A DNA stretch of 64,000 nt from Sanderia malayensis. Lineage: Eukaryota > Cnidaria > Scyphozoa > Semaeostomeae > Pelagiidae. This document shows, in pieces, positions 11,481 to 59,681 of the stretch. A program made the translations under genes and the position numbers. Position 1 is the first letter of the stretch. Every line of letters begins with the position of its first letter. Below the pieces are notes generated by a model. The model had not been told where the DNA came from, did no database searches, and saw nothing but the letters and a program-made list of their open reading frames with translations. The stretch spans positions 372,001-436,000 of the forward strand of contig RQOL01000828.1 in assembly GCA_013076295.1 (NCBI GenBank), written 5' to 3'.

Positions 11481-12809
11481 CTAACAAAAAATTGGGGAAA
11501 ACCCTTCTAAAGAATTTCTTAAATTAAAGTTCTGGCCAAGTTGTGACATGGTTGAGGAAGCACTTGAACGAGTAGTCTCTTCTGCGGGGGTAGGAGCAGG
11601 GACAGACAAAACTTTATCACACTGAGTATAATAAAGCGCCATATCGGTGTTCCTCCAACCCACATGACGCGCGATACCGGACAATGGAACACCGAGCAAG
11701 GCCATAGTAACGGAGCAGCCACTACGGAAACTATGCACCGTTTCGCCTTCGAAGATAGATAGTTCCGACATGTATTTCTTCAGTCGATTTGCGACGGCTG
11801 ATCCGGTGAAAGCATCTGTTGTAATACGGCCTTGGCGGTCAGTGGTCCGAAATAAGAAGCCAGCACGCAGGTCGATGGACATGGCCGAGGCGAGAGAAAG
11901 GTACAGTTTGAAATTAGAGACCGGACAAGCTGAACATGCCGGCACACGTCGTATTGCGAACACGTTGCTGTGGTTGCCCCTGAGTGTCTTCCCGAACACT
12001 TGATTGAAAACGTAGCATTTGCCATCCTCAGCGACAAGGACGTCCGAAGCCTTTGTTCTCCCCAGGTCCGATGCCCGGTTGCCAGAGAAGAAATCGACGC
12101 AAAAGAAAGCTAAGTCCCGACACAACAGATAAAGTGTAGAAGGGTTTTGGCCTGACGGACGAATCAGCTGTCTTAAATGGTCGCAAACCAGGACCAGCTT
12201 GTCCAAAAACAGTGGTTTAGCCTGTGTAGGAGAGACCCTAGCAACGGTTTGGCTTTCGAGGACTAACGTGTGATATTCCTTTACCGAGTAATGAGAAGCG
12301 GGATTCCCAAGTTGCAGCTCATAATTCCAGCTTGTACCCCGTCCATGATTCTTGAAGATAGTACGCAACTTCCCAATGTAACTGTCAATCGTGCCGGCCG
12401 CGAGACCACGATAGCAACTGCAACCAGAGCTGTCACTCTGAGATTTACACGCGTCCGTATGGGTGATAGTTTTACCGAACTGATCCTTCCAAATGAGAAA
12501 ATCAATAACGTTCCGAGGCGTAGCGGTAGCAACTGTTTTCTTGGTAGGTAGCGACCAAAGAAAGGATTCCGAATCTTGCTGCAGCTTGCCTTTCTGCTTT
12601 TGATAAGGTTTTACTTGTTTATAGCGGGTGAGACTATCGAAGCGCGCCTGGATTGCGGAGTGGTCAGCCGAGATTTTAGACGACGACACGGCAGCTGAAG
12701 ATGCTGGTAGGCCACAATGCAGACAGAAATGAAAATCGAAGTCGTTCGTATAATTACAAGCATCACACCGAGCAGCCGGTTTCCATAGCCGTGGAATCTG
12801 AGCGCCAGT
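11481..12809 (-). CDS. Tyrosine recombinase with N-terminal zinc ribbon (Ngaro-type ORF)
   Basis: The enzyme that integrates the circular element copy by strand exchange instead of a DDE integrase. The open frame of 402 residues from 12689 extends upstream without a stop to a likely splice acceptor (TTGATTCTTAG, ending at 12810). The extension has a CxxC-x11-CxxC zinc ribbon (CDACNYTNDFDFHFCLHCG, about 12719-12775). Catalytic residues are visible: the first Arg in GNRASDL, HxxR in HSFRSG, His/Trp in ARHVGW, and the nucleophile Tyr in ALYYTQ. No start codon is obvious in the extension, so it is probably made from a spliced mRNA. It lies just after pol and appears intact. Confidence 0.88.
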   Translation of the reverse strand, partial: TGAQIPRLWKPAARCDACNYTNDFDFHFCLHCGLPASSAAVSSSKISADHSAIQARFDSLTRYKQVKPYQKQKGKLQQDSESFLWSLPTKKTVATATPRNVIDFLIWKDQFGKTITHTDACKSQSDSSGCSCYRGLAAGTIDSYIGKLRTIFKNHGRGTSWNYELQLGNPASHYSVKEYHTLVLESQTVARVSPTQAKPLFLDKLVLVCDHLRQLIRPSGQNPSTLYLLCRDLAFFCVDFFSGNRASDLGRTKASDVLVAEDGKCYVFNQVFGKTLRGNHSNVFAIRRVPACSACPVSNFKLYLSLASAMSIDLRAGFLFRTTDRQGRITTDAFTGSAVANRLKKYMSELSIFEGETVHSFRSGCSVTMALLGVPLSGIARHVGWRNTDMALYYTQCDKVLSVPAPTPAEETTRSSASSTMSQLGQNFNLRNSLEGFSPIFC

Positions 12810-12816
12810 CTAAGAA

Positions 12817-14937
12817 TCAAAACAAGAGTTTACAAGCATAAAGATCCCAACACAGTGGCTTTTCGTGCCAGCCGACTTTCTTATCCGGGAGAAATAGAAG
12901 AATGCCTGACTGATCTTTAGCTCCTATCTTGAGGTGAGCTACCGACAGTGACCTTAGCACCGGCCACCAATACTTTCTAGGTGACAGGTCGGGGATTACC
13001 ATGGTCACTAAACATCCAGAACCTTTGAGGAAGCGCAGCAATGCGCCTATCAGGACAAATGGTGGAAACACGTAATAGGTTTCGGAAGGATCAAGGGCCT
13101 GTGCGAAAATGTTGAGACCCTCGGCACTTGGACATGGTACTGGAGAAAAGAACTTTAAAGCACGTCCTGAGCGGTCATGACGCACGTTTGAAGGTATGGC
13201 CATAAGATCAAAGGTATGTGGGCCGAAGACGCTATCCACCTGTCTCCATGTGGCGTCAGAGAGACAGCAGTCTATATCCGAACGGAATCGCGAAGGTGTA
13301 TCTGCTGCCTGAGCCTGCGAAGGAACGTAATGCAGCTCCCAAGTCGTGTTGAGCTGCATGGTTAATTCAAAAAGATTTTTTATCTCCATATTCAGTGAAA
13401 AGTTCTTTCCGCCTTCATTATTCCAAAACTGGAGGAGGTTGGTGCTGTCAATGTAGGCGTCGACGTGGGCATTAAAGATTTTGCTGGAAAAAGTGGAGAG
13501 TGTATTGTAGAGAGCTTTCGCCTCCCTCACCGCAATGGGAGTGTGGATATCGTGTTCTGACCAATAATCGCGTGTTGTCTGATCACCGGACGGTAAGTGA
13601 AGGATACCACCCCAACCAGAATTTGAGGCGTCGGAGTGCAACGTAATTACGATGTGTTTTTCTGACCTCCAGGAAAGCGAACCCTTCCACGTGTCAAGGA
13701 ACCGCCAGTATTGAAGTTCTTCCCTGAGGTTTGCTGCCACCGAAACTGGTTTAGACGCTTTGATCCCTTCGCTTATAGCGGCATTCACTTCCTGGATGTA
13801 TAACCGCGCGGCAGGAACTTCCAAGGCAAAAGAAATGGCTTTTCCAGCAAACCGTTGCAATGTCTTTACGGAAACCTTTTTTGAATCCAAAATAGACTCT
13901 CTTAAGGTGGCAAACTTTTGGACCTTGTCTTGTGGGAGCGAGAAACATTGCGATGTGGAGTCCGAGATAAATCCGAGGAACAAGATTTGTTGTGTAGGCA
14001 TGAAGACTGATTTTTTAATTCCAATAAAATACCCGCAATTGATTAATACTAACGAAGTTACAAAGATAGCAGCCTCGGCCAGCTCAAAATTTGACCAGTT
14101 TTTCGCAGCTGATGCCGGTAAACGAAGTTGGCCGACGTGTCGATCGTCAATGTATTGCGTAACCGGAACACCCTGTGTTCTGATGAAATGAGAAGCAGCG
14201 AGGCCGGTAGACTGGTATATATAAGCACTCGGGCTCCAACCAAAAGGAAGCGTGTTATAAACAAAATAATAACCCTTCCAATAAACGCCGAAAAATTGTC
14301 GATTGTCTGGTGTTAGTCGTATGTGGTCATACCCCGATTTGTCATCCAATTTAGTTTGGTAATGGATTGGCTCTACGTAGCGGGGCAGATCGGTAACAAA
14401 GTCGAGGTGAGTTTTCGGAAATTTCATCCATAGATTTAAGAACCGTTCGTCATGGCATAAACGCGGCTTTGTTGGCTCTACTGTGAGAGGCATAACCAAA
14501 TGTGGAGGGGTGCAGTCGCCCTCTTTTCCCCAGATTGAGAGAGAGCCATTGCGCACCCTTTCAAGGAGTGGTGCGGAGATAAAATCTTCGAAGGCGTCGC
14601 AGGACTTGCTATTAGAGAACATGGCTTTAGGCGGGAGTTTTGAGTTGTAGTATTTCCCCTTGAAAGAGCCACGAAATCGGGAAAAGAAATCGTGAACGGA
14701 GACACCATCGGAAATGTATCGCAAAATTTCGTCGCGATGCTTATAGCCGCTTGTAATAAAATCCCAGGTCGCAAAATGGTTTGTAAGATTTCCTGCGACG
14801 AATGTCTCTGGATCCGGAAATATAACATTACGTGCCGAAACTTTGAGGCGTCCGTGGCGAACATCCGTTAAAACATTTAAAGAATACTGAGTGGCTGGAT
14901 CAGAGGGTTTTCCTTCCCAATCGCACCATTGTTCCAT
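12817..14937 (-). CDS. Ngaro/DIRS-order pol: reverse transcriptase and RNase H
   Basis: 706 residues, uninterrupted. The reverse transcriptase (about residues 130-330) has KPRLCHDERFLN, LDDKSGYDHIRLT, LPFGWSPSAYIYQ and the catalytic box YIDD. The RNase H domain (about 440-560) shows HSDASNSGWGG, the Glu in REAKALYNTL, YIDSTNLLQFW and PSQAQAADTPSR, so the acidic residues are present. The C-terminal region (about 570-706: FDLMAIPSNVRHDRS, VFPPFVLIGALL) matches the extra domain after RNase H in DIRS-order elements, sometimes compared with a degenerate adenine methyltransferase. The start is the first Met of the open frame; a splice acceptor upstream (CTTTGTCTAG) could extend it. Confidence 0.92.
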   Translation of the reverse strand: MEQWCDWEGKPSDPATQYSLNVLTDVRHGRLKVSARNVIFPDPETFVAGNLTNHFATWDFITSGYKHRDEILRYISDGVSVHDFFSRFRGSFKGKYYNSKLPPKAMFSNSKSCDAFEDFISAPLLERVRNGSLSIWGKEGDCTPPHLVMPLTVEPTKPRLCHDERFLNLWMKFPKTHLDFVTDLPRYVEPIHYQTKLDDKSGYDHIRLTPDNRQFFGVYWKGYYFVYNTLPFGWSPSAYIYQSTGLAASHFIRTQGVPVTQYIDDRHVGQLRLPASAAKNWSNFELAEAAIFVTSLVLINCGYFIGIKKSVFMPTQQILFLGFISDSTSQCFSLPQDKVQKFATLRESILDSKKVSVKTLQRFAGKAISFALEVPAARLYIQEVNAAISEGIKASKPVSVAANLREELQYWRFLDTWKGSLSWRSEKHIVITLHSDASNSGWGGILHLPSGDQTTRDYWSEHDIHTPIAVREAKALYNTLSTFSSKIFNAHVDAYIDSTNLLQFWNNEGGKNFSLNMEIKNLFELTMQLNTTWELHYVPSQAQAADTPSRFRSDIDCCLSDATWRQVDSVFGPHTFDLMAIPSNVRHDRSGRALKFFSPVPCPSAEGLNIFAQALDPSETYYVFPPFVLIGALLRFLKGSGCLVTMVIPDLSPRKYWWPVLRSLSVAHLKIGAKDQSGILLFLPDKKVGWHEKPLCWDLYACKLLF

Positions 14938-15432
14938 TCTAGGAGCAGGTTGAGATACAAGACGTTTAATGCTTGCATGAAACGACGTATGTTGTCTTGG
15001 AGACTAGACAAAGGAAGAGAACAGACTTGGTAAGACAGTTGTGACAGAAGGAGGGAAAATAGAAAACCCTCAAACCCAGCCACCCAGACCGACAGCCAGA
15101 GGCCGCGTATTAGAGCCCTTAGTTAGGCCCCCGAGTGACTGAGCAAGAGGAAAGGCAAAGTAAGATGCGGAAAGCAGAAGTTTGAGTGCAGAGAACTTTT
15201 CTTTGACGTTATTTAAAACGTTAGATAATGAAACAGAAAGACTAACGCGGACACGAGAAAAATACGACAAAAAGCTTTGTGTAAAGAACGTTAATTATGT
15301 GAAACAACACAATGAAAACTCTTTAGAGGTCACTGTCAATTAATACAAAAATTAGAGAAAAAACTCAAGAGCAAGTTGTTCATAGACATAGCAGAGTTCA
15401 CAACAAATATCAACGATGGTTCGCCCCCAAAA
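14938..15432 (-). other. Ngaro-type element, gag-pol intergenic stretch
   Basis: About 0.5 kb between the gag stop (15433) and the pol start (14937), without a convincing coding frame. It contains candidate splice signals on the element strand, including a pyrimidine-rich acceptor ending CTTTGTCTAG near 15010, so pol may be made from a spliced RNA. No tandem repeats seen. Confidence 0.5.
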
Positions 15433-44270: not shown

Positions 44271-44351
44271 AGGCGTCAAATCTCCCAGTCTAGTCGTAGG
44301 ATAAATAGGCCCATCAAACGTGGTAAGAGAAATGGTCTAAAAATAGCTTTT

Positions 44352-44954
44352 TTGAATATAGTCTCTTTAAGAAAACATAAATACGAGCTAGAAATTATAC
44401 TCAAAGATAATGATATTGATATTTTAGGCCTAAATGAAACACGCCTGAATGATAAAATTGAAGATTCAGAAGTTGACATAAATGGCTATTACGTTTTTCG
44501 CAATGATCGTGATGCAAACGGGGGAGGGGTAGCTTTATATGTAAAAGATAGTCTGCCATATCCAACTGTCAAATTAAAAAGCGAAAAATTAGAACTACTG
44601 CCGGTTGAGATCACACCTAGACATTCAAAATATTTTTTGGTTGTTTGCTGGTATCGTCCTCCTATTTCAGGGGTCGATGAAGAATCCTTTGAAAATCTTA
44701 GGGATTCCCTAAAACAACTAGATAAAGATGAGATCGAAATCATTTTGATTGTCGACACCAACCGTGATCTAAAAAACAAGCAAAGTAGCAATGCAAAAAG
44801 GCTCAAAGCAATATATGCTGAGTATCAACTTGAGCAACTGGTTAAAAGTTACACCAGAGTTTCTGCATCAACTAATGAGTATAATGAACAAAGAATTAGT
44901 AAAACACTAATTGACCATTTCTCTACCACTAAAAACAATACATATCTGAAGTAG
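44352..44954 (+). pseudogene. LINE APE-type endonuclease
   Basis: 200 residues resembling the apurinic-endonuclease domain of LINEs: LNIVSLRKHKYEL at the start, the catalytic Glu in GLNETRLND, ALYVKDSL, CWYRPPIS, and the C-terminal LIDHF with the conserved Asp-His. The usual GDFN motif reads VDTN, so a glycine is lost. The frame is interrupted near 44954 and resumes in a different frame at 44960. Confidence 0.8.
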
Positions 44955-44959
44955 ATATC

Positions 44960-45349
44960 TTGGAACTGGGGATGGTAGACCATTACCTAATATACGGAAC
45001 ACGTAAAATAGGCAAACAAAGAAACGAAAACAAAATACCTAAAATTATAGAGTCCCGTAACCTTAAGAAATATAATGATATAGCTTTTCAAAATGATCTG
45101 CTAGAAATCGAATGGGAAACCATCCTCGGCCCTCTTTCTGATGATCCAAACAGTATGGCAGCTACGTTTCAGGGGATTTTTGAGTCAATCCTTGAAATCC
45201 ATGCACCCCTCAGGAAAAAACGAGTACGCCATGATCCTACACCTTGGATAACCCCTGAAATAAGGAATCTTATGAAAAAAAGAGATAGGGCAAAGAGGGA
45301 TGCAATAAACTCTCCTGATATGTGGAAAAACGTTCAAGAAACTTCGTAA
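44960..45349 (+). pseudogene. LINE linker between endonuclease and reverse transcriptase
   Basis: 129 residues, out of frame with both neighbours. It has the typical inter-domain motif LRKKRVRHDPTPWITPEIR found between the endonuclease and reverse transcriptase of CR1/Jockey-type LINEs. Single-base frameshifts near 44955 and 45345 bound it. Confidence 0.75.
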
Positions 45350-45353
45350 TAGA

Positions 45354-46436
45354 GTGACTTCAGCAATACGAAGTGCTCTGCAGTCATACTATCTGGATCT
45401 AATAAATGAAAATAAAGAAAATCCAAAGCAAATGTGGAGGGCTGTGAATAGAGTGTTGAATAGGGAAACTCAATCAGCACAGATTTCTAGCATGGAAATC
45501 GAAGGAAGAAAACTTACTGAAGAAAATGAAATTGCCGAAGCTTTTAATCAGCACTTTATCACAGTCGGTCCAAAACTAGCTGAGAAACTAAAATCCAAAG
45601 CGAATGATGACCCTGCTGTTAAAATCAATGCTCAGGCTCAACAACTTGAGTTTAAGCAGATTGACAACACATATGTCGTAAACGCAATATCCAAATTAAA
45701 AAATGGAAAAGCGCCAGGACCAGATAAAGTCTCTACAAAGCTAGTAAAGGACGCTAGGGACTTCATCTGTAAACCATTAACTATGATCTACAACTCGTCC
45801 CTGCAAACCGGTCTTTTCCCAGATATTTGGAAGCTAGCAAATGTCACGCCTGTATTCAAGGCTGGTCCGAAAAATGACCCCAACAATTATAGGCCGATCT
45901 CTGTCATTGCTATTTTCTCAAGAATCTTGGAAAAGATCGTGCACGACCAGATGTTTGAGTTTCTTCAACCAATTCTAACACACAATCAGGCTGCTTTTAG
46001 GAAACTATATTCAACAATAACATCCTTAATAAACAGCTCTGATTCTTGGTATGAAACTATGGACAGGGGTGAAATGAATCTGACCATTTTCCTTGATCTA
46101 AAAAAGGCATTCGACACAGTCGACCATACTATCTTATTAGCAAAATTAAAAAGGTATGGCGTTAGAGGAATAGCAGGCGACTGGTTTACATCATATTTGC
46201 AAAATAGGAAACAGTTTTGCACCATCAATGGACATAAATCTTCAGCTAAAATGATAACTTGTGGAATCCCCCAGGGCTCGTGTCTTGGTCCACTCCTGTT
46301 CATAATCTATCTGAATGATTTTGAAACCTGCCTTCAATTATCTAAGGCCAGCATGTATGCAGATGACACACATGTTACTATAACATCCAAAAACCTTGAG
46401 AATCTTCTTGAGAATGCTCAAATCGAACTACTTAAT
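45354..46436 (+). pseudogene. LINE reverse transcriptase (3'-truncated)
   Basis: Reverse transcriptase with NGKAPGPDKVSTKLV, YRPISVIAIFSRILEKIVHD, FLDLKKAFDTVDH (catalytic Asp), GIPQGSCLGPLLFIIYLND and the catalytic box YADD at about 46357-46368. The thumb and everything 3' are missing; the sequence passes into the tRNA-like array at about 46437. The last residues of the open frame are array translation. Confidence 0.88.
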
Positions 46437-47202
46437 ACACCCCAAACGAGCTCTGAAGCTCTAGAAGTGAACGATTTTGTAATTTAATGCCTTTTTTGCA
46501 TGCATAAAAGCAATTGAACAAGCAATATAATCTCAAAATGGATTGAGAAGCATGGTTTCGAACCCTGGGCCTCTCGACTGCTAAGCGAGCAATTTACAAC
46601 TGAGCTACACCCCCGATGAGATAATAAACTCTAGCATTCAATGCTCTTGTAAGTTAACGCCATTTCGCATATGCATAGGTTCAAATAGGGTACGAAACTG
46701 ATCTCAAAAAATGTCCTTCTAGCATGCTATGCGAGCACTCTACAACTGAACTACACCCCCAACGAGCTCTGAAACTCTAGAAGTGAACGCTTTTGTAATT
46801 TAATGCCTTTTTGTGTATGCATAAATTCAAATGAACAATCAATATAATCTCAAAATAGATGGAGGAGCAGGGCTTCGAACCCTGGGCCTCTCGCATGCAA
46901 AGCGAGCGCTCTACCACCGAGCTACACCCCCGATGAGATAGTAAACTCTAGCATTCAAAGCGTTTGTAAGTTAACGCCATTTCTTGTAAGCATAGGTTCA
47001 AATATGGTATGAAACTAATCTCACGACATATGCAGGAGCAGGGTTTCCAACCCTGGGCTTCTAGCATGCTAAGCGAGCACTCTACCACTGAGCTACACCC
47101 CCGATGAGATAGTAAACTCTAGCAGTCAAACCTTTTGTAAGTTAACGCCATTTCGTATATCCATAAGTTCAAATAAATTATGAAACTGATCTCAAAACAT
47201 AT
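46437..47202 (-). repeat. tRNA-Ala-like tandem array, block 4
   Basis: About four and a half units. One unit near 46700 has lost most of its T-arm (atgtccttctagcatgc). The block ends at CATAT (47198-47202), the target duplication of BEL-3, just at the 3' end of a tRNA-like body. Confidence 0.9.
46860..46931 (-). tRNA. tRNA-Ala (UGC), near-consensus copy
   Basis: Acceptor with G3-U70, D-arm A box TAGCTCGGTGG, perfect anticodon stem with loop TTTGCAT and T-loop TTCGAAG. It fits the cloverleaf apart from the shared 6-67 mismatch. Confidence 0.7.
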
Positions 47203-47921
47203 TGTTACGTATCTCGGGACTGTAGTCTAAGTGTGTCCAAATGTCACGTGGTCACAAGTAACTTAAAGACTCTAATACGCGTAAAGTGGTCAATTTGCGT
47301 GATAAATTACTGGTGCGGAAGAGTTGACGATCTTATGAAAAAAACCAATTGTGAGGGTTAACGTAATAAATGCCAATAATCCAAAAACGTAAACTAAAAC
47401 ATAATCAATTATCAAAATAAGCAGAAGGCTATTATATTAGGTTATATAACATATCAATAAAATCGAGGGTAAATATTACCAAAAAGTAAAGATAAACGAA
47501 TATAGCTAGAATATAAACGAAATGCAAAATATGAAAGAGCCACGACAACTAAAAACGAAGTGTAAATACAAGAAACTTGACACGATATTTGCCCTAAAAA
47601 GGGAAAACACGAAACGAAAAGATAGGTAAAACAGACAAAAACTGTACTTACATATCGTAGCCTGCTTGCCCTGATATGCAGCCAAAGAATACTCGAGAAA
47701 TAACTGATATTCTAACTTATTGAAGCACAAAGAAAAAACACGTTTCACTAAAAACTCTGTCACACATACCAACTGAAAATGTTACATAAGGCACACAGAA
47801 ATAAAACCACACAGAACAAAGAAAATAAAACCACATGCACAAGTAGAACTACGGACTGGACTCAAATTTCCAACACGGACAGTATACCCCAAAACCACAA
47901 AAAATAAAATAAAAAGCTACA
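47203..47921 (-). repeat. BEL-3 3' LTR
   Basis: TGTTACGTATCTCGGG...GCTACA on the plus strand. It aligns with 59807-60536 over its full length with scattered substitutions and an 8-10 bp difference near the right end. Confidence 0.93.
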
Positions 47922-48032
47922 TGGCTCCCCTGAAATAAGCAAATTATTTCACAAAATTAAGTGTCCATTGTCCAAAGCTACGATTATAATATATTGTTCA
48001 AGAATAATAGAAATGGCTCCTCGGCCGGGAAC

Positions 48033-49580
48033 TTACCCCGATGCTGACTCACCACATGGTACCAGAAGCACCAGTTTCTGCACCGGACGATCGTAGAAAC
48101 GTACTGGGTTGATCCTCCTTCCCTTCTTGTCCAGGGTTTTATCCGCTACTGCAACTTGAACCTTGCGAATGCGACCATCTGCACTTGGGTACACACTAGA
48201 AATCCGAGAGAGTTCCCATTGGTTCCTCGCGAGGTTCTCTTCCTTCACCATGACAATATCCCCCACGCACAGGTTACGCTCAGGACGCACCCACTTCCGT
48301 CGTTCTTGCAAACTCAGTAGAGACTCCTTGCGCCAACGGGTCCAAAACTCGTTCGCCAAACGCTGAACACGTCTCCAGCGTCGATTGCAATAAACGTCTG
48401 CTTTTTTGAAGACTCCTGGTGGTGGAAGTAGGACCTTTGACTTCATTGTCAGAAGATGATTCGGCGTAAGAGGCTCAGGTGAATCCGGATCGGTAAGCTG
48501 GTTGACGGTAAGAGGTCGGCTGTTAACGATAGACTCTGCTTCACACATCAGGGTTCTCAGAGATTCATCATCCAGTTGTGCTCCGTTGCTAACTAGAAGA
48601 GATGACAAGACTGCACGCATTGTCCTAATCTGCCTCTCCCACACGCCTCCCATGTGGCTGGCGGTTGGCACGTTCATTTTGAAGCTAATCCAGTCGCATT
48701 TCGACTTCAGGAGCTCTTTTCTGACCTTGTTTTCATCCATTTCCTCAAGTGCTTCTCTCAGTTTTCTACGGGCTCCGACGAAGTTGGTCCCTTGATCGCT
48801 TCTGAGTTGTCGCACTGGCCCTCGTCTGCTTAAGAATCGTCTCAAGGCGTTGATGAACGAATCAGTAAACAGCGACGATGCAGTTTCAAGGTGAATTGCT
48901 CGCGACGACATACAAGTAAACAAAACTCCAAGCGCTTTAGCTCTTTGCGTCCTTCTTTGATTACAAACGGACCAAAATAGTCAACACCACAATACGTGAA
49001 GGGCGGGCAACATTCGAGACGATCTTCAGGAAGGCTGGACATCTTCTGCTGACAGGCTGCTCCGCGTAGCTTACGACAAGAGACACAAGATGAAATCGCT
49101 GCGTTGACAGACGAAGTTCCACCGATGATCCAAAATCCGTTAAATCGTATCTCATTGAAGGTGATTCCTTTGCCCTGATGCTTTGTTTTCTCATGGAAAT
49201 ACCTGATGATGACGGATGTAGCATGGTTTTTGCTTGGCAGAATTATAGGATGTTTAACAGCAATTGATAGATCAGCTTGTTCTAGACGCCCGTGGACTCG
49301 TAAAACACCTTTACTGTCAATGAATGGATCGAGTTTGGAAAGACTGCTCCTCATTTTCACGTTGGCTTCTTCTTGACAATTGGCCTTTTGCAAGACCTTA
49401 AGCTCTTCGGAAAACGATTCAGGTTGTACTGACTTGATAATCGTTAATCCGGCTTCTTCAATATCTGCAGCATTAACGCTTCTTTCGATTGTCGTTTTCT
49501 CAACACGACTTTTGAGAATCAGGATGTATTTACGGCATAGTGCTACAACTCTTTTCGCTCGATACCAGTTCGAAAACCGC
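48033..49580 (-). pseudogene. BEL-3 integrase and preceding linker
   Basis: From the right: the linker RFSNWYRAKRVVALCRKYI adjoining the Kolobok insertion, then FIDSKGVLRVHGRLEQADL, the zinc-binding region (HEKTKHQGKGITFNEIRFN, CVSCRKLRG), the first catalytic Asp in YCGVDYFGPF, a frameshift near 48910, then CMSSRAIHLE, the second Asp in RSDQGTNFVG and the Glu in GGVWERQIRTM. The C-terminal half has LNSRPLTV-type motifs (IVNSRPLTVN), EFWTRWRKESLLSLQ and CVGDIVMVKEEN. The stop is at 48033. One frameshift, otherwise well kept. Confidence 0.9.
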
Positions 49581-49757
49581 TTAAAGTGTTAGTGAACCCT
49601 AATCATTTGTTTCGCTTTTTTGATAGCTGTGACCCTAAAGAGTTAGGAAAAAAGTAAATTACGTGAAAATTATTTCGTTTTCCCCTGCAAAACGCCGCTT
49701 GAAAACCCCAAAACCCTCCAAAAAACCGCGTTCATCAGAAGTCTGGGTCGAGTTAGT

Positions 49758-49777
49758 TGTGACGTAGATACCGGGAC
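49758..49777 (+). promoter_or_regulatory. Inner inverted repeat, left copy (promoter-proximal)
   Basis: TGTGACGTAGATACCGGGAC, 106 bp upstream of the plus-strand start codon. It contains a TGACGT core like a CRE/ATF half site. Its exact inverse lies at 54471-54490. Confidence 0.6.
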
Positions 49778-49882
49778 GGGATCGTCGTCGGCCTATCTGT
49801 ATCAGTACTATTGCATTCGTCGCACGTTCAGTATTGTTTTGTTGTTGAAAGAGAAATAGCGTTTAATCACCTATAAAAGGAA

Positions 49883-50814
49883 ATGGATTTACAGTCAGAA
49901 TGTAGTAGTTGCAGTGCAGGCAGTTTTTCAAGCTTAGACGCTTCAGATTATGAAGAACAAGTAGATGAAGATGTTCATCTTGATGCGGTAAGAGATCCTT
50001 GTCTCGAGCACCTCCATAAGGAAAACAACACGGACGCTTTTGGCGATGAACTTTTACCTTATCAAGATGAACCCCTTGCTGATGAGGAATGGGTGAATGA
50101 GTATCGGGAAAGAAAAAATAGGGTTGTAGAGCAGGATGCAAGAATGGAACGTCGCCTCCGTAGGCAAGAATATGAACAAGAACGTAATTGGTAAAAGCAA
50201 CAAAGCAACACATTTTTCTTGTTCTAGGCCTCTCTTTCAATTCACATCTTTTGTCTCAGTGTACAATTTACTTTGTTGTGTATAGGTGTAAATGTGGAAA
50301 CTGCAGCGTAGATAATCTTGTCAACTCGAGGGAATGCTTTTGTTGTGCAGAAATAGAAGGTTGCGTAAGTGAACTTCACAGTGATAGAGTTGTGACAGAA
50401 GTCAATGAGCCTCCAAAATGCATAACTGAACACCCTGGCTTCAGACCCATTTGCCTTGAGCCATGGGTTTTAAGGCTTTCAGCACAAAAATTTCGAACTC
50501 GCCAAAATCAACGTTATCAACAGGGGAATAATGAAAATGCGTAAGTGCACACTATCTTCTTTTGTATGACATGGAAACAAATCCATAATCCTCAAACCAC
50601 TTGAAAGTGTGACACTTTCATTAATTGAATATAACTTCTAAGTTTCCTTAGATGTGTTGCATATCGTGATTTCACTCGACTTGTCCATGGTTTACTGGGA
50701 AGAAAAAGAATTCCGTTACCAGCATGTGTTTACGAGAAAATCAGAAAAAGGTTCCCTTCTGATACCCTAGCTGGGTATCAAGATGAGGATACCAGTGAAC
50801 CAGAAGATTTGTAA
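49883..50814 (+). CDS. P2X7 C-terminal (ballast)-domain-like protein carried by the transposon
   Basis: Exons 49883-50190, 50286-50540 and 50652-50814 with donors GTAAAAG and GTAAGT and acceptors GTGTATAG and CCTTAG. All junctions are in phase: 726 nt, 241 residues. The N-terminal part is acidic and serine-rich (CSSCSAGSFSSLDASDYEEQ), then charged. The C-terminal part has a cysteine-rich module: CKCGNC, ECFCCAE, CITEHPGFRPICLEPWVL, CVAYRDFTRLVHGLLGR, LPACVYEKIRKRFP. This spacing resembles the zinc-binding cytoplasmic domain of P2X7 receptors, which is also found as a stand-alone module in many invertebrate proteins. There is no transmembrane segment, so it is not a receptor. Its function in the transposon is unknown. 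Its stop lies 51 bp from the stop of the convergent transposase. Confidence 0.8.
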
Positions 50815-50864
50815 ATATTAATGAATAGGTAGCAAAGGAGAGAGGATCACTTTTTGTTCTGTTG

Positions 50865-53800
50865 CTATAGATTTTTTGGACAATCGTATTGCTTGTGACC
50901 CTTGCGTGGATTACCACATGTTCTACACTTTGGAGCAGCTCGTTTGGTTGTATTTGCCAATTCAGTTTCTGTTGATACTAAAAGAAAGATATTTACATTT
51001 CATGACATAGGAATAATTCATATTCAACAATTTATATATATATATTTAGAAACATATACTAACCGGGTAGCAGTGTAGGTGGAACCTCCTTTGTCGTCTT
51101 GGCTTTTCTCTCAGCATGTTTGCTAATAGCAGCCTCCTTACTTTGTTTTGTAAGTGCTGCAGTCATAGGTGGAGGAGACATCTCTTCTAACTCAGATCTG
51201 TTCTGTGACAACAGACCACCAGTCATTGCTTCGCACACAGTGTCATATAAACTTTGTATGTAATCTATATTAAGGAAAGTATACAAAATGTTAATTAATG
51301 ATTCAGCAGTCTATTCCATAAAGCTGACTTCAATTTTGTTCCCATGGCTGCTGCATCTTACCAAAATTCTGTGGCACCCTTGCATCTCTAACTGTTGCTT
51401 CACCGTTTTTGAACTTGGGGTATGTCACACGCACAATTGTTGCTCCATTCGCATCAAGCTTTTGCTGCCGCAGTATGTTTGCATTGAAATGTAGTATTGC
51501 TAAAATATGCCTGGAAGTAAGGATAGACCCCATCACAATATTACTAGAGCAGAATCATGTTTTTGATGATTAAAATTGCACAGCATGTGAAATCTAATAA
51601 CAATTGCAATTTACCGACAATACATTCCAACAAAAGTGAAGCCAATCATCTTTGGTGCAAAGTGATTAGCTACAGAATGGAAGCCTTCCAGACAGCTTGT
51701 TTGGGTAATAGGTGAAGCCTTTTTAATGCCTTTGATCAACCTTGGCTTTAGAAGTACAGCTGTCATTTTCTCATAAGCAATATCATCTACAAAATTAAAT
51801 GCACAATTATATAAGATAACTCTTTGCATATGAAAGCAGACATTTAAAGTTACTGAACTTGCACACAAACCTTTTTCCAGCCATCTACGCTCAGAAATGG
51901 TTTCTGGGTGATGACATTTATTAAACAGAGGATTATCGAGATTGTCATGAACATTTCTGACATGCCAAAGAAACGATTTAAATTTTGCCCATATAACATC
52001 AGGATTTCCAGATGGTGTTGAAACAGCACTCCAATGCAAATGATTAATGCACGGCTGTATCCATGGTGCGATGATGTCACAATTTTTCAATTTGGCTATT
52101 TTGAGAAATTCCTTTTTTATTTCTGCAAACATAAATCAATAAGCATTTTCAACTCATCTGGGCTATTATTGTATTCCAAATGGGTTCTTTAAGAAATATT
52201 CCAATATAAAACAAAATTGAACTAACTTTTTTTCAAATGCCACAAGTCAAAATAGTGGGTAAGCTGTACAAATTGTTCTTTCATGTGCTTGATGATCTGT
52301 GAATGCCGGTCAGAAACAAATGTTACGATATTAAGTTCATGCCCATACATAAAGCTGAAACAGTTTTTGAACCCAGCATATTCCATCTCATTACTGCTAC
52401 CCACTTGATTTCGCTATGAGAGGAATACAGAATGTGTTATTAACTTCTAATGTACCAAGAAATTGTAAATGTTATGGTACTGCATTTGATAATTAGAGTA
52501 AGTAACAGCAGATTACTATCCACCTGTACAACACTAAAGTCTATTATCTGGGCAGTATTGGAACAAAATATTGTGTAAATTCCAAATTTTGCATTATGAC
52601 CCATGCTGTCATGCCTTGCATCCCCAGTCACCACCAATTCTTCATTCTTTTCCTTTATGCAAGCAATTGCTTTGTTTTGGTACAGTTTCCAATGTGCGTG
52701 GATTGCAGGGAACAGTATTTCCTGTATATAGAACCCCAAGCATGATTATGAAAAAGGTGTTTCAATTGCAAACATACAAAAAAGTATAGTATATTTCATC
52801 ATCTCACATGTTGATGCTTGAAATATGTTCTTAGTGAAATTGTGGCTATGCCAATATGTTGCAGAATACGCAGAACTTTACAGGCTGATGCTCCAGTAGT
52901 CAATATACTAAAGGGCAGCAACAGATTCCCAGCTGGTATATTTGTCCCAGTTATCAGAGGTTGACTTGACCAGACATGTTCTTGTTTCGTGCATTTGCCA
53001 TTGAAACATCTTGTTTTGACTTCAAACATGGTTCCAACTTGACGAGAGGTCACAGATGGATTTTCTGATTTACAATTTGGACAAAACGAAAACAATAATA
53101 AAAGCTGTGACAAAAATACAATAAACTTCTTTTCCATCCTTTGATTACCACCAGCACTGCTGAAATGAATAGTATTATATGTATTAAGATGAGAACAGTG
53201 GGTAACATATCTTAACTTACTTGAATAAGATTAATGTTGTTTATTTCATACTTACCATTCACCTATTTCTTCATCAGCCTCCTCAGAACTATGCACATAT
53301 TCCTCCATGTCATAGTCTTCATCACTATCCATTTCTGTGTCATCGCATTCCATATCCGAACTATCAGAATCACACACATTCGCATCAACATTTGCGTCAT
53401 CAACAGTGCTGTGGTCAGCATCATCTGTCTCTGCAAAATCGTTGCCGTCATAGATTTCCTCTGCTCCTTTACGACTTTGATTCAAATTTTCTAATAGTGA
53501 TAAGAACATCAGAATATGTACACAACCGGTGCAGCATGTAAAATGTAGCATCATGATGTCATTATATAATATTATACCTAACTGTCTTCTCAAAATCTTC
53601 ACTTTGTGTTTCATGCCCAGCCAACAATTTTGCAGTCTTCTATTTTGTTTTTTTAGTGCTTTGCAGCTATAACAATCAAAGGTTGTTTGGCAAGAGAAAT
53701 CTTTAGCCTGGAAAAAACATGACAGTTTAAAATCCAAAACATGTCCATATGTACTTTTTAATTGTGGTAAAAATGTTTATTCCATTCTTACGGGAATATA

Positions 53801-54396
53801 TGACTGCTCATCACACAACAATGTCTCATCAGCTGACTCATCTTGATGTTCAGGTTCTGGGAATGACACTGTGGCAGATTTGGAAATCTCACGCAATACC
53901 TGACATTTTAGCAAAATATTATCAAAGTCAATAGGTTATACATTATTATACATATTTCAAAAAGAACCACATGTAACAATATACAAAAGAGCACCTGTCG
54001 ACGCTCTCTTGTTGTTGACTTCTGCGACGTGCTAGGCCTTGACGAACATGCAGCTTGATCGTGTTTTTTCTGGCAGGTTTGAATTGATGGAACTGCAGTT
54101 ACACCCAATTCATCTCTTTTCAAAACTGCTTTCATACTTTTTTGAAAACCAGGAACACACATTTTGGCTGTTTCAAAATCGTCGGGCTTAAAATGTTCAG
54201 AACATACAACCGAGTATTTTGTTGCTTGCCATTTGTCTCTTTTCATGTTTACAAAGTTAACCCACAGCTTTCTTCTCTTCACTGCAGCGGGTCTTTCGTC
54301 TCCATAGAAAGGGATCTTGTGGAGTGAGATACCACGGTCTTTTGATTCCTTGTTATTTTCATTGTTGCATCCGTACACAACACAGTAATCGGGCAT
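50865..54396 (-). CDS. THAP-DDE transposase, 12 exons (Kolobok-like)
   Basis: Exons read from splice signals: 54396-53995, 53899-53792, 53707-53578, 53490-53256, 53159-52808, 52721-52524, 52413-52227, 52122-51871, 51786-51615, 51510-51362, 51264-51064, 50977-50865. They total 2,499 nt, exactly 833 codons, with every junction in phase and GT-AG borders, giving 832 residues. The THAP zinc finger (residues 1 to about 90) has CVVYGC and VVCSEHF as C2CH ligands. An acidic stretch lies in exon 4. Candidate catalytic residues are D443 (TGDARHDSMGHNAKFG), D510 (TFVSDRHSQI) and E655 (TSCLEGFHSVANHF); HYFDLWHLKK follows the second Asp. The C-terminus has a CCHC-like knuckle (CRTCGNPRKGHKQYDC). The exon model is inferred; family assignment rests on TTAA and domain order. 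Confidence 0.85.
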
Positions 54397-54470
54397 TGTT
54401 GGTTTAATAATGTTATTCCGTCTTGCGTGAAGCAAAGCAAGCAAAGGCAGATAAATAAAGTTTTTAAATC

Positions 54471-54490
54471 GTCCCGGTATCTACGTCACA
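54471..54490 (-). promoter_or_regulatory. Inner inverted repeat, right copy (promoter-proximal)
   Basis: Exact inverse of 49758-49777, 75 bp upstream of the transposase start codon. Either a shared promoter element for both genes or an internal transposase binding site. Confidence 0.6.
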
Positions 54491-54678
54491 GCAGGTCGCC
54501 CCAATCCTCTTTCTTTTTGCGCGGTAATTTTTCAAAACACCCCAAAATTGCCATTTTCAAGGCCCCAAATGACACCCTTTTTGACTAAACACAGCAAAAT
54601 AAACTTTCTCATGATTTTCGCAACCCTTTTTTCAGTAGATTAGGCGAAAAACATGATTAGGGTTCACTAACACTTTAA

Positions 54679-55488
54679 TTCTTTCAGCAAGAGAAGGCAT
54701 GTTTATGACTTCAGAGGTCGCCATTGTGACAGATTTCTTGATTTCTTTGTCATCCTCTACGACTTCGAAGGAATCTCTGCTAGCTGGTCACTTGCTCTCA
54801 TCTTCCCACAGAAATTCAGGACCACGAAACCACCGAGAAGTTGTCAGTTCATTTGCCTTCATTCCTCTGGAAGTTTCATCTGCGGGATTTTCTTTAGATT
54901 CTACATACTTCCATTGACTCGCAAGGGTCTGGTCTTGAATTTCCTGCACCCTGTTGGCAACAAATACGTGAAACCGTCTGCTCTCGTTGTTAATGTAGCC
55001 TAAAACCACTTAACTGTCTGTCCAGTAGTGATCACTGTCAATATGGTATTCCAGTTCTCTGGTTTGTAACATCTTTGAATACGAATACGTTGTAGCTGCT
55101 CTAATTCACATCTCCACTTCTTCCAATCTGATTTTACGTTCTCTGGGATGGGGTCATCCCAATCAAGGTTGAGGCGGCACAGTTCTTGTAAAATAGATTT
55201 CCCTTGCAACAAGAGAGGGGCAACAAAGCCAAGTGGATCGAATATGGAACTCACTGTCAACAATATTCCTCTTCTTGTGCAGGGCTTGTCCTGTAACACG
55301 ATGGAAAACTGAAAGCAGTCAGACTCTACACACCACTGAACTCCGAGTGTGCGTTCTATGGGTAGCGAGTCTAAATCCAAGTCCATTTCTTTCACATCTT
55401 CTGCTCCATCCGACTCTGGGATTGCTTTGTGAACCTCCTTGCTGTTTGAAACAAACTTGTGCAGGTAAAAGCCCCCTTTGCTACACAT
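54679..55488 (-). pseudogene. BEL-3 reverse transcriptase connection and RNase H
   Basis: Two frames (55488-55000 and 55009-54788) covering the connection domain (RTLGVQWCVESDCFQFSI, SSIFDPLGFVAPLLLQGKSI, LDWDDPIPENVKSDW) and RNase H (YINNESRRFHVFVANRVQEI, NPADETSRGMKANEL). Coding continues to the Kolobok insertion at 54678. Compared with intact relatives the region with DASxxAY and LELxAA is missing between the two frames, so there is a short internal deletion near 55005. Confidence 0.85.
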
Positions 55489-55506
55489 CTCCTTGGTATT
55501 TTCGAT

Positions 55507-56756
55507 TCACTTCAGAGCATCTGTTGCAGCTGGAACCGATTTTAATCCGTCGTCTACATAGAAGTCCTTTCGCAGGAACTCCGCAGCTTGGCTACCAAGC
55601 TCGTCTTCATTATCATTGGCTGTTGTTTCCAAGGCAAAGTTTGCGCAACCAGGCGAAGAAGTTGCTCCGAAGAGGTGCACTGTTATTCGGTACTCTTGCG
55701 GCTCTGTGTTAATGTCACCTTCTTTCCACCACAAAAAACGAAGCAGGTCTCTGTGTTCTTCATTCACTTTCACCTGATAAAACATTCCTTTGATGTCACA
55801 TGTTATAGCAACAGGCTCTTGGCGAAACCTGCACAGCACTCCTGCCAGGTTGTTGGTCATATCCGGTCCCTGAAGTAGTTGATCATTGAGCGAATGTCCT
55901 CGAAACTCAGCTGCACAATCGAAGACGATGCGAATCTTGTTTTTCTTTGGATGGTACACACCATGGTGAGGTATGTACCAAACACTGCTCTTAGGTTGGT
56001 CTTTTGAACCAACGTTCGGTGGGAGGGGCTCTGCGTATCCATTATCAATTATGTCTTGCATAAATGCCACATAATCTTCTCGATATGTAGTTCCCTGTTT
56101 CGATTCAAAGGGTCGTTTCAGCTGGTTCAATCGGCGCAAAGCAAGATCTCTGTTGCTGGGCATGTCTAATTTCTCCTGTTTGAGCGGAAGTGGAATTTCA
56201 TAATGTCCACTATCTGTTTGATGAATTCCTCGTTCTACAATGCTGAGGAATTTTCTGTCATCCTTTGACAAACTCTTATTAGGGGCACCGATATGCTCTG
56301 TAAAATCACGCTCGAACATTTTCACGATGGCTGCTGGATTGACAATTTCCTTCGACCTTTCATTTATGATGAATTCCGGGCAAATGCTGCTGTCATTACC
56401 AACTTCATATGCGACTATTCTATTGCAGTTAGACTCATCTTCTGTCTCACGAGTATTTGTAGCATTGACTGGTCCCACAATGCACCAGCCGAGCAACGTG
56501 CGTACGGCATGCGGGTCTCCACCCTTTCCTGCTATAATTTCCTTTGGCTTAATTGCCTTTGGGCAATTGCATCCTATCAGTAGACCAATGTCTAAACTGT
56601 CGTCGCGTTCTAAAATCTTCTCCTTAATTTTTCTCAGATGAACCCATTTTTCCGCTATATCTGGGGTAGGAATCTGGTTTCTTCTTGCTGGAATGCTGTC
56701 CTTTGCATAGGTTTTAGGCAGCTCGACTTTGACACGTCTATCTAGGCGTTCATATA
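55507..56756 (-). pseudogene. BEL-3 protease C-terminal part and reverse transcriptase
   Basis: The frame starts at the LINE junction with DRRVKVELPKTYAKDSIPAR, IGLLIGCNCPKAIKP and DPHAVRTLLGWCIVGPV, the block that follows the protease active site in BEL/Pao. The DSG/DTG triad itself is absent. The reverse transcriptase has NKIRIVFDCAAEFRGHSLND, LLQGPDMTNNLAGVLCRFR, CDIKGMFYQV (catalytic Asp), FGATSSPGCANFAL and the YVDD box in DFYVDDGLKS. It stops at 55507 by frameshift. Confidence 0.9.
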
Positions 56757-58696
56757 ATATAATAATAATAATAATAATCAATTTATTTTGTGTTGGCTGC
56801 AAAAAATTATAGCTAAAAGCTAATTAAAGCCGATTAAGTTACGTGAATTAACTAAACTAGTTACAAAAATAAATATGAGTAAATTAAATTACTAAAGACA
56901 TAGCCTAATATACATTTTTAAAAACTACCCTTCCCGAGTATACCCCTCCCCTTTCCCGATGTCAATTAATGAATCCGACTTGATGAATAAAAGTCTGGCA
57001 CAACTTGCAGGTGCAAGATTTAGCTTTCCATGATTTTATCCTACTCTTAAACTGACTCAGTGTATTAGACTCCTTGATTTCATTTGGTAAGGAAGCCCAT
57101 AATTGGCATCCCCTGTATCTTATATCTTCAATTCCATATGCTGTAGCTCTAACCTTTGGCATTTGCAGGTGATTTCTATTTCTCACAGATAGATTTTTAG
57201 CTCTTTCCTTAAAGACATATGTCATGAATAATGGGCTCAGTCCATTCCTAGTTTTGAAAATCTCAGTCATTAGCACCTGCAGATTGCGCTGGTGAATTGT
57301 TATGGAGTCAGGGGCACTTAGCAATTCTTCAAAATTTGACTGGTCACCTTTGCATACGACCCTGAGAGCTTTTTCGTGTATTTTATTAATCTTTTTATTT
57401 ACGCCTCTGTCAACGAACATCCAAATCAAGGGGCAATAACTAAACTGTGATTTTATAAATGATTCCATGATTATCTTCAGCTGAGCTGGACTCATGTAGA
57501 CTGAGAGGCGGCGTAACGCATGTAACTTCTGGTTAGCTCTCGTGCATATGGCCTCGACATGCTTTTTGAAGTTAAGTTTTTTGTCCAAAATAACCCCTAA
57601 AAGTGTCTCACTTTCACTTTCCTTTATTTGAACGTCGTTCAATTTGATGGTCAAAGTAGTGCTAGGGTTGCAAAAAAACATTAGGTGACATTTTTCCGCG
57701 TTAAGACACAGAAAATTGTTAGAGAACCACCTTGAGAGTTCGTCACTGTCCTTTTCTAGTTTTTGAATTATGTTAATGGGATCATGGTCGCATACATAGA
57801 TGGTGGTATCGTCGGCATAATTACAGATCTTAAAGTAGTTAACAAATTGGAAAATTTCATTAATGAATATGCTTAACAGTAAAGGTCCTGGGACTGAGCC
57901 TTGAGGTACGCCAACAAATATATTTTTCCATTCACTGTGGCTACCATTCAACTTTACCCTTTGTTGTCTACAGGACAAGTAACTGTGTATGAGCTTTGAA
58001 GCCCCATAAGAAAGTCCATAGGCATTTAGTTTTACAATCAGCAGGTCATGGTTAACGCAATCAAATGCTTTTGAGAGGTCCATTAAAACTGCACCAACTA
58101 CTCCTCCGTTATCTAAAGCTATTTTACAGCTTTCTACAAAATTTATCAACGCATATTGGGTATTATATTCACTTTTAAAGCCACGTAGTAAGGGGGAGAA
58201 GAAGGAGGTCATATATTCATACAGTTGATTGTACAGTATTCTTTCAAATACCTTAGCGATTGCTGGTAGTAAGCTTATTGGTCTATAATTGATCTTTTTC
58301 ATGATGTCATTTTTCTTGAAAAGGGCAGATACATCAGCCATTTTGAGTTCATCAGGGAAGGTGCAATTATCTACACAATCGTTAAAAATGTTTTTAAGCG
58401 GCAAGGCAAAAATTTCAGCATTAGCTTTGCTGGTAAGCTTTGTTGTGGGCTACTCTTTTTGGGATTCATATTAAATAGCTGCTTTTTAAGTTCTTGTTCA
58501 GTTATTTTATGAAAAGAGAAAGAATAGGTATCGTCTGGCACAACGGCTGCTATCTTTAAGATACTTGAGTGCGATTTAAATTCTTCACTTGTTGCTAGAA
58601 CAGGATCATCAATTGTTATTGTGCTATTTGATTCTTCCTTTTCAGAAGTGATATCAAGAGATTTAGTTATGTTTACGAAATAAAGCTGGTTACTCA
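56756..58696 (-). mobile_element. 5'-truncated CR1/L2/Jockey-type LINE in BEL-3
   Basis: A 1.94-kb insertion on the minus strand ending in an (ATT)n tract next to 56756-56778, a typical simple-repeat LINE tail. It contains the C-terminal part of a LINE polyprotein and lacks the endonuclease. At its two borders the BEL-3 coding sequence does not meet: gag stops at TFSGDSFE and protease resumes after its active site, so about 1 kb of BEL-3 was lost with or after insertion. No clear target duplication. Confidence 0.85.
56962..58696 (-). pseudogene. LINE reverse transcriptase
   Basis: Two frames (58697-58371 and 58404-56962) separated by a one-base shift near 58400. Motifs: MNPKKSSPQQSLPAKLML (degenerate KSSGPD), INYRPISLLPAIAKVFERI, LMDLSKAFDCVNHDLL (catalytic Asp), GVPQGSVPGPLLLSIFINE and NYADDTTIYV with the YADD box, followed by the thumb (FLCLNAEKCHLMFF, LLGVILDKKLNFKKHVEAIC) and a conserved C-terminus. 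The stop is at 56962, followed by about 200 bp of 3' untranslated sequence. Confidence 0.9.
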
Positions 58697-59681
58697 AATG
58701 AATCGCCAGAAAAGGTGGGTGGTTCTCTCACTGGAAGCTGCGAAACTCTTTGCTGATTCAGTATTAAAGAGCTCAATTCAGTCTGCTTTACTTGCAGATT
58801 AGCTAGTTGATTTACTGTTATACCAATGTCTGCTGGCTGAACTCCTTGATCTGGTATTGCGATAGCTGAATTAATGCTGCATTCTTTATTTTCTTGCGAT
58901 GGAGTGAAGCTTGGCGCGCCTGGATTCAATGAATGGCTAACTACATTTGATTTATTTTCTACACACTGTTCGTTCTGGTTATTTTCAGGCCTTTTTTCTT
59001 CTTCCAAAATTTGTTGAAAAGCACGCTCTTCAGCCACTGCTATTGGGTAATCCTTTTCTAGTCGTAAGCGCTTTAACTCATTTTCTTTATCAATAAAATC
59101 AAGTTCTAACCTTAATTTGGCAGCCTTTGCCGCAGATTCTGTCCTCGCAAAGGAAACAGATCTCATCGAAGACCTATGGCTGCTTGGCCTAGAGGCGCTT
59201 GTCATTTTTGTCCTTGAAGAGACAACGCTGGGCTGACTTCTATATGAACCCCTTTCAAGGCGCTGAATACGCTCGCACAGCCTCACCCTGAAATCCGTAA
59301 ACTCTCTGTCTCTGACATCATACCAACGATACGACTCATCCTTTTCATTTGTATCAAGTAAACAATGAAAGGCTTGGTGGGCCGCATTAAATTGATCCTT
59401 TAGGGAATATAATTTATTGCGTTCTTCTTCAAGGGCTTCTAATTCTGTTTATCACACAAATTTCTTATTTTTTCAACCTGAGTTTCAACTTGCTGATAAG
59501 CTTTCTCTCTGCCTCTACCTCTTAATTCCTTCAGGTAGGATTTTCCCTTTTCTGTAAATCTTTTTCGGCGAGAAGAAACCTTTATTTGAATTTCAGATTG
59601 GGCCCGAACACTATCTGAAGTCGATTCTCTCTTGGAAAAGTTTAAATCATCTGGGGCTGAGACAGTACTCATTTTTACCAA
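58697..59681 (-). pseudogene. BEL-3 gag N-terminal part
   Basis: It starts at 59681, followed by a basic, coiled-coil-rich N-terminus (RRKRFTEKGKSYLKELRGRG). A one-base frameshift near 59448 separates this from the continuation ELEALEEERNKLYSLKDQF and YRWYDVRDREFTDF, which joins the stretch from 59286 (LCERIQRLERGSYRS, a glutamate-rich helix with EKENELKRLRLEKDYP-like character). It ends at REPPTFSGDSFE, the usual start of the BEL/Pao gag core, where the LINE begins. The zinc knuckles are lost. Confidence 0.8.

Follow-up and report, generated by a model that had tools for sequence, protein, structure and literature searches.

Kolobok DNA transposons are defined by a TTAA target site, 5′-RR/YY-3′ ends, and a DDE transposase with a C/DxxH motif followed by a zinc finger ahead of the glutamate, and their Kol0 lineage, represented by Kolobok-1_XT, is defined by a second gene named KolX (Kojima & Bao 2022, PMC9587614). 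According to the same paper, KolX resembles residues 476–595 of human P2X7 and has the cytoplasmic ballast fold, P2X7 originated when KolX became fused to a P2X4-like gene, and Nanor probably represents a KolX that was domesticated. Ballast-domain proteins, linked to two markers, are found in many animals, and outside vertebrates R546 and R578 are the only GDP-binding residues retained (Rump et al. 2020, PMC7016195). Our literature search found no published report on the function of KolX. Here we describe a transposon of 5,090 bp, bounded by TTAA, at positions 49585–54674 of a 64-kb stretch of DNA from the cnidarian Sanderia malayensis (contig RQOL01000828.1; the whole stretch is called the window). 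We consider it a full-length, probably autonomous Kolobok DNA transposon of the Kol0 lineage, with a probability of about 0.9 for the identity of the element. It has inserted at TTAA, has inverted ends and open frames for KolX and for a transposase containing D, D, DxxH, and E, and is present in three near-identical copies.

Ends, copies, and genes of the element

The boundaries of the element consist of the following features.

49581–49584, no strand: left TTAA target-site duplication (a single TTAA in relatives of the target without insertion)
49585–49615, + strand: left terminal inverted repeat, 31 bp, begins with AG
54644–54674, − strand: right terminal inverted repeat, ends with CT
54675–54678, no strand: right TTAA target-site duplication (from the sequence and the flank comparison)

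The 31-bp terminal repeats match at 93.5% (35 nucleotides and 94% complementarity if the TTAA is counted), and the AG...CT termini agree with the 5′-RR/YY-3′ ends of Kolobok elements. The window copy lies in a retroelement-like host sequence (BEL/Pao as judged by eye from its reading frames). Two relatives of this host sequence on contig C680 are uninterrupted at the site and share 94.7 and 96.7% identity with the left and right flank, respectively. In these relatives the two flanks overlap by exactly four bases, TTAA, as expected from the 4-bp duplication of Kolobok elements. Two further copies in the genome are 100 and 99.96% identical to the window copy across the whole 5,090 bp; both lie between TTAA sites, and the sequences flanking the three copies show no similarity to one another. 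Because near-identical copies are found in dissimilar flanks, the element is more than a chance arrangement, and it has moved recently. An earlier note on this DNA had placed a TTAA-flanked Kolobok-type element at 49585–54674, and the ends, the target comparison, and the copies bear this out.

The element contains two convergent genes, KolX on the + strand and the transposase on the − strand. Both are predicted to be complete and to contain introns, as the earlier note had read them, with no internal stops and the frame kept.

49883–50190, + strand: KolX exon 1
50286–50540, + strand: KolX exon 2, with CKCGNC, ECFCC, and CITEHPGF
50652–50814, + strand: KolX exon 3 and stop, with LPAC and IRKRFP
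53995–54396, − strand: transposase exon 1, THAP domain (PF05485, E 3.3e-14)
53792–53899, − strand: transposase exon 2
53578–53707, − strand: transposase exon 3
53256–53490, − strand: transposase exon 4
52808–53159, − strand: transposase exon 5
52524–52721, − strand: transposase exon 6, region of the first catalytic aspartate (GDARHDS; alignment of relatives)
52227–52413, − strand: transposase exon 7, second aspartate (SDRH) and DLWH motif (alignment of relatives)
51871–52122, − strand: transposase exon 8, conserved Cys/His (alignment of relatives)
51615–51786, − strand: transposase exon 9, catalytic glutamate (CLEGFHS; alignment of relatives)
51362–51510, − strand: transposase exon 10
51064–51264, − strand: transposase exon 11
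50865–50977, − strand: transposase exon 12 and stop, CxxC..H..C pattern by eye

The predicted transposase comprises 832 amino acids in 12 exons (54396 to 50865) with GT..AG introns and no internal stop. Alignment with 13 relatives reveals the DDE triad with DxxH between the second aspartate and the glutamate that characterizes Kolobok. The aspartate of SDRH, DxxH, and the glutamate are invariant. In GDxRxD the second aspartate is invariant and the first nearly so, and either could be the catalytic one. Between DxxH and the glutamate, where Kolobok transposases have a zinc finger, a nearly invariant H, H, C, and H follow in the alignment with these 13 relatives, which is separate from the published Kolobok set.

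The predicted KolX product has 241 amino acids, zero internal stops, and GT..AG introns that keep the frame. Its proposed match to the P2X7 C terminus holds up, because it scores above the cut-off of the Pfam family P2RX7_C (PF20478; E 5.3e-6, 26.9 versus 23.5 bits), spanning profile positions 61–184 of 192. A phmmer search of the Protein Data Bank (PDB) with the 241-residue protein gave no match up to E 1, and a profile search of the PDB gave two distinct sequences, both P2X7 (E 0.024). The P2X7 ballast domain has seven conserved cysteines around two zinc ions. In the profile alignment with P2X7, the cysteines of CxCxxC, CC, C, and PxC correspond, with two stretches being weak (i-Evalue 3.9 and 0.9), and Cys-506 of P2X7 can be placed opposite either of two KolX cysteines in this weak-scoring alignment. 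The predicted structure of a KolX relative resembles the P2X7 ballast fold; the other 14 Foldseek rows for this model (globins, malic enzyme) were disregarded. KolX is conserved across species in the alignment of relatives. The second gene of the element thus corresponds to KolX with its ballast fold, by profile for the window protein and by model for its relative.

Further KolX-like and element-like sequences were seen elsewhere in the genome. Unbroken KolX-like frames of 178–214 amino acids (C675:5505906–5506307, C303:2552008–2552400, and C675:4990883–4991257; L037–L039) score 80–95 bits on PF20478, far above the KolX of the window. The transposase query gave no match beside the first two and a weak match beside the third, and these frames represent either another Kol0 family or domesticated genes. 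At C843:23894–36929, KolX-like exon fragments recur every ∼2.59 kb (26453, 29041, and 31627, with 36774 about two periods later) in what looks like a tandem array. Three element copies at C579:51516, 64684, and 75495 (L033–L035), matched within 7-kb stretches, are 96–97% identical and match the first 2,235 bp only. They are spaced 11–13 kb apart on a single contig and perhaps reflect segmental duplication of one truncated copy. The other long reading frames of the window (975–21473, 44271–49588, and 55000–59448) appear retroelement-like by eye, comprising BEL/Pao-like gag-pol pieces, a DIRS-like pair (11481–15003), and LINE-like reverse transcriptases.

Pairing of KolX with the transposase and a subterminal motif

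Genome-wide, we compared the distances between 92 KolX-like clusters, which include one copy twice (C303:3545576 and C303:3548389), and transposase loci mapped by exon-8 matches. On the transposase side the pairing drew on 64 of 66 rows, the other two being second pieces of listed loci, and on the KolX side each locus was represented by roughly one row. A transposase match lies within 3 kb of 41 clusters, within 6 kb of 43, and within 12 kb of 47. These 47 pairings involve 45 distinct transposase matches, and every one is convergent (divergent 0, tandem 0). No transposase match lies within 12 kb of the remaining 45 clusters, and 18 of the 64 transposase matches are without KolX. In the sea anemone Actinostola, a THAP transposase (P0161) and a KolX (P0022) carry consecutive locus tags. 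The uniform orientation and the sea anemone pair agree with the earlier suggestion that the ballast-domain gene is an integral part of the element.

The claim that this gene is under constraint fared less uniformly. Within the window family, the ratio of nonsynonymous to synonymous differences (pN/pS) of KolX is 0.40–0.65 against five relatives and 0.71 pooled over all pairs, with few changes, and constraint is not apparent there. It is apparent across species and, within this genome, in the related lineage described below. Seven related loci grouped as transposase-bearing give a pooled KolX pN/pS of 0.46, with stop codons among them; for six of the seven a transposase match lies no more than 3 kb away, and for C303:3722635 it lies at 9.4 kb.

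Inside the terminal repeats, the element carries a second pair of inverted repeats.

49758–49778, + strand: 21-bp subterminal inverted repeat, left, 105 bp ahead of the KolX start codon
54470–54490, − strand: 21-bp subterminal inverted repeat, right, 74 bp ahead of the transposase start codon

The two repeats are 100% complementary to each other and lie 174–194 bp from the left and 185–205 bp from the right end. In a second family, whose KolX exon 2 is 53% identical, the motif is found ∼172–194 and 180–202 bp from the ends, as measured on a piece that extends beyond the element by 6 bases at its start and 4 at its end. Exact matching across 184 Mb gives 42 occurrences of the motif TGTGACGTAGANACC and one of the reversed control. 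Among the 36 KolX loci compared, a locus lies within 6 kb of 35 of the 42 matches, and all 14 inward-facing motif pairs bracket a KolX locus (by eye, three window-family copies and eleven from the second group); the remaining loci of this set have no exact motif nearby. A subterminal inverted motif is thus common to two KolX groups, as distinct from Kol0 at large. Its position 105 and 74 bp before the start codons would suit either a promoter element common to both genes or a site recognized by THAP or KolX. The word “subterminal” is absent from the main text of PMC9587614 and from the available text of PMC6004289, and the motif may still be published elsewhere.

Short derivatives and the role of KolX

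Elements of ∼3.17 kb at four loci (C405, C479, C675, and C303), which are 91–99.6% alike, contain KolX together with the THAP exon and C terminus of the transposase. No match to transposase residues ∼335–761 was found in these elements. The deletion junction is identical in all seven copies in which it was read (C405, C479, C675, C569, C686, C859a, and C655a; C892 and C655b were omitted from this reading), and the deletion in C303 is larger. TTAA is clear at both ends in two of the four long loci (L073 and L075). In a tree of KolX exons 2–3 with their intron, C850 and C390 group with the ten derivatives in a single clade (ultrafast bootstrap 80) that adjoins the full copy C45b (bootstrap 96). 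C444, also without a transposase exon-8 match, groups with full copies outside this clade, and its KolX is frameshifted. C390:208276–210945 and C850:23140–25810 represent a second short KolX-bearing form, with 2.67 kb between the motifs and a KolX whose CxCG region carries an in-frame insertion.

The derivatives were first found via KolX, which introduces a finding bias. A DNA search with the right end returned 27 rows and recovered all nine copies used; by eye, six of these rows lie more than 12 kb from any listed KolX, namely C483 (92%), C686:2923762 (96% over 135 bases), and four at 73–79%.

In seven of nine copies, the THAP exon is interrupted by a frameshift or stop. One THAP frameshift is common to C405, C479, and C892, which are near-identical in the stretches read and have KolX exons 1–3 open. 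Across the nine copies, pN/pS is 0.95 for the THAP remnant, 0.17 for KolX exons 2–3, and 0.34 for KolX exon 1 (eight copies). The corresponding synonymous and nonsynonymous events are 10:43 for THAP, 17:12 for KolX exons 2–3 (Fisher p 0.0005), and 16:27 for KolX exon 1, and p is 0.002 when THAP is compared with all KolX exons. The seven junction-checked copies give 0.83 for THAP and 0.19 for KolX (p 0.005). C655b was omitted from the THAP comparison because its THAP exon lies outside the stretch read; with C655b included, the events in KolX exons 2–3 become 18:18 (p 0.003). Judged from exons 2–3, KolX had seemed open in all ten derivatives, but exon 1 overturned this count. Three copies (C303, C655a, and C686) have a frameshift in exon 1, C655b has lost it by deletion, and in C859a the stretch read did not reveal it. 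KolX is whole in five of the ten.

Mechanistically, the THAP-DDE transposase would bind the element ends and carry out cut-and-paste transposition into TTAA sites. KolX would be a soluble ballast-fold protein with a probable zinc site, and it could assist as a cofactor at the DNA of its element by end binding, complex assembly, or local relief of silencing, a mechanism for which we see the chances as evenly split. The earlier note had likewise proposed that the gene product may be an accessory transposition or DNA/chromatin-binding factor. Two rival readings differ in whether KolX serves any copy or favors the one encoding it. The reading that we favor among the rivals, at about even odds, is that KolX is a plain trans-acting transposition cofactor and that the derivatives look selected through youth or through exchange with full-length copies. 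This is consistent with KolX accompanying the transposase in 47 clusters and with the lack of a whole exon 1 in half of the derivatives. Youth or gene conversion, however, would lower synonymous change as well, yet pS is similar in KolX exons 2–3 (0.059) and THAP (0.046).

Alternatively, and more tentatively, the role of KolX may be private to the element, cis-favoring, and separable from the transposase, for example a sequence-specific anti-silencing like that of VANC, with transposase-less copies selected to keep KolX. A trans-acting helper should decay once the transposase is lost, as the near-neutral THAP remnant does, whereas KolX exons 2–3 decay far less; the simplest account of this difference, albeit one that we hold to be somewhat doubtful, is that the DNA encoding KolX profits from it. 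The single junction in all copies read and the open KolX of the three copies with a shared THAP frameshift point in the same direction. Several observations weigh against it. Because exon 1 is broken or not found in five of ten copies, a cis benefit is a lead and not proof. In addition, KolX of C655b looks neutral, the THAP exon is unbroken in two of nine copies, and the comparison, made in a single genome on 63–82 events each, was picked after seeing the data. The fuller proposal, that KolX is self-favoring and that a Kolobok lineage without a transposase core spread and diversified while selection kept KolX and not the remnant, we regard as rather unlikely. If true, the ancestor of the P2X7 tail would have been a factor by which a transposon favors its own DNA, perhaps at the subterminal motif.

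A further reading, in which KolX was captured from the host and does nothing for the element, a single capture having been raised in the earlier note as a possible counter-explanation, would fit the presence of ballast-domain proteins in many animals (PMC7016195), but is very improbable given the fixed convergent pairing (47 of 47), the pair in another cnidarian genome, and the low pN/pS.

KolX is the proposed source of the P2X7 tail, and this genome provides a Kol0 element that is open and has recently moved, together with many related loci and a candidate binding or promoter motif. The derivatives, in which KolX and the transposase are separated, constitute a natural experiment, and the function of KolX is directly testable.

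Comparison with known systems

The fold predicted for the KolX relative is like that of the P2X7 ballast domain (PF20478; PDB codes 6u9v and 8tr5), with cysteines that align weakly. In contrast to P2X7, KolX stands alone, with no channel part found, and possesses an extra invariant cysteine (Cys-122 or Cys-141 of P0003). With Nanor and PTHR36981 (PMC7016195), KolX shares a short protein with a C-terminal zinc-coordinating cysteine domain and a variable N terminus; these are described as genes, and “transpos” does not occur in the available text of that paper. The same paper mentions an Ixodes protein with a “TAHP” domain ahead of the ballast domain; we suspect that THAP was meant and that the gene model is a fusion derived from a Kol0 element. 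VANC of the Arabidopsis VANDAL transposons (PMC10398659) is likewise a transposon gene other than the transposase, and acts on noncoding DNA of its element, binding it and removing silent marks. Its likeness to KolX is one of logic only and would serve as an analogy for the cis-favoring reading.

The closest counterparts are the Kol0 elements themselves, with which the window element shares the TTAA duplication, RR...YY ends, a DDE transposase with DxxH, and KolX with the ballast fold, whereas its family and its host differ from the published ones. The link between KolX and the P2X7 tail was already published in 2022. The idea in the earlier note that such elements spread the domain agrees with that work (PMC9587614), and its mobilization is therefore not a new suggestion. 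Because the arrangement has been described there, the window element joins a known group, to which this genome adds the all-convergent pairing, a motif common to two KolX families, and a derivative lineage with conserved KolX exons 2–3.

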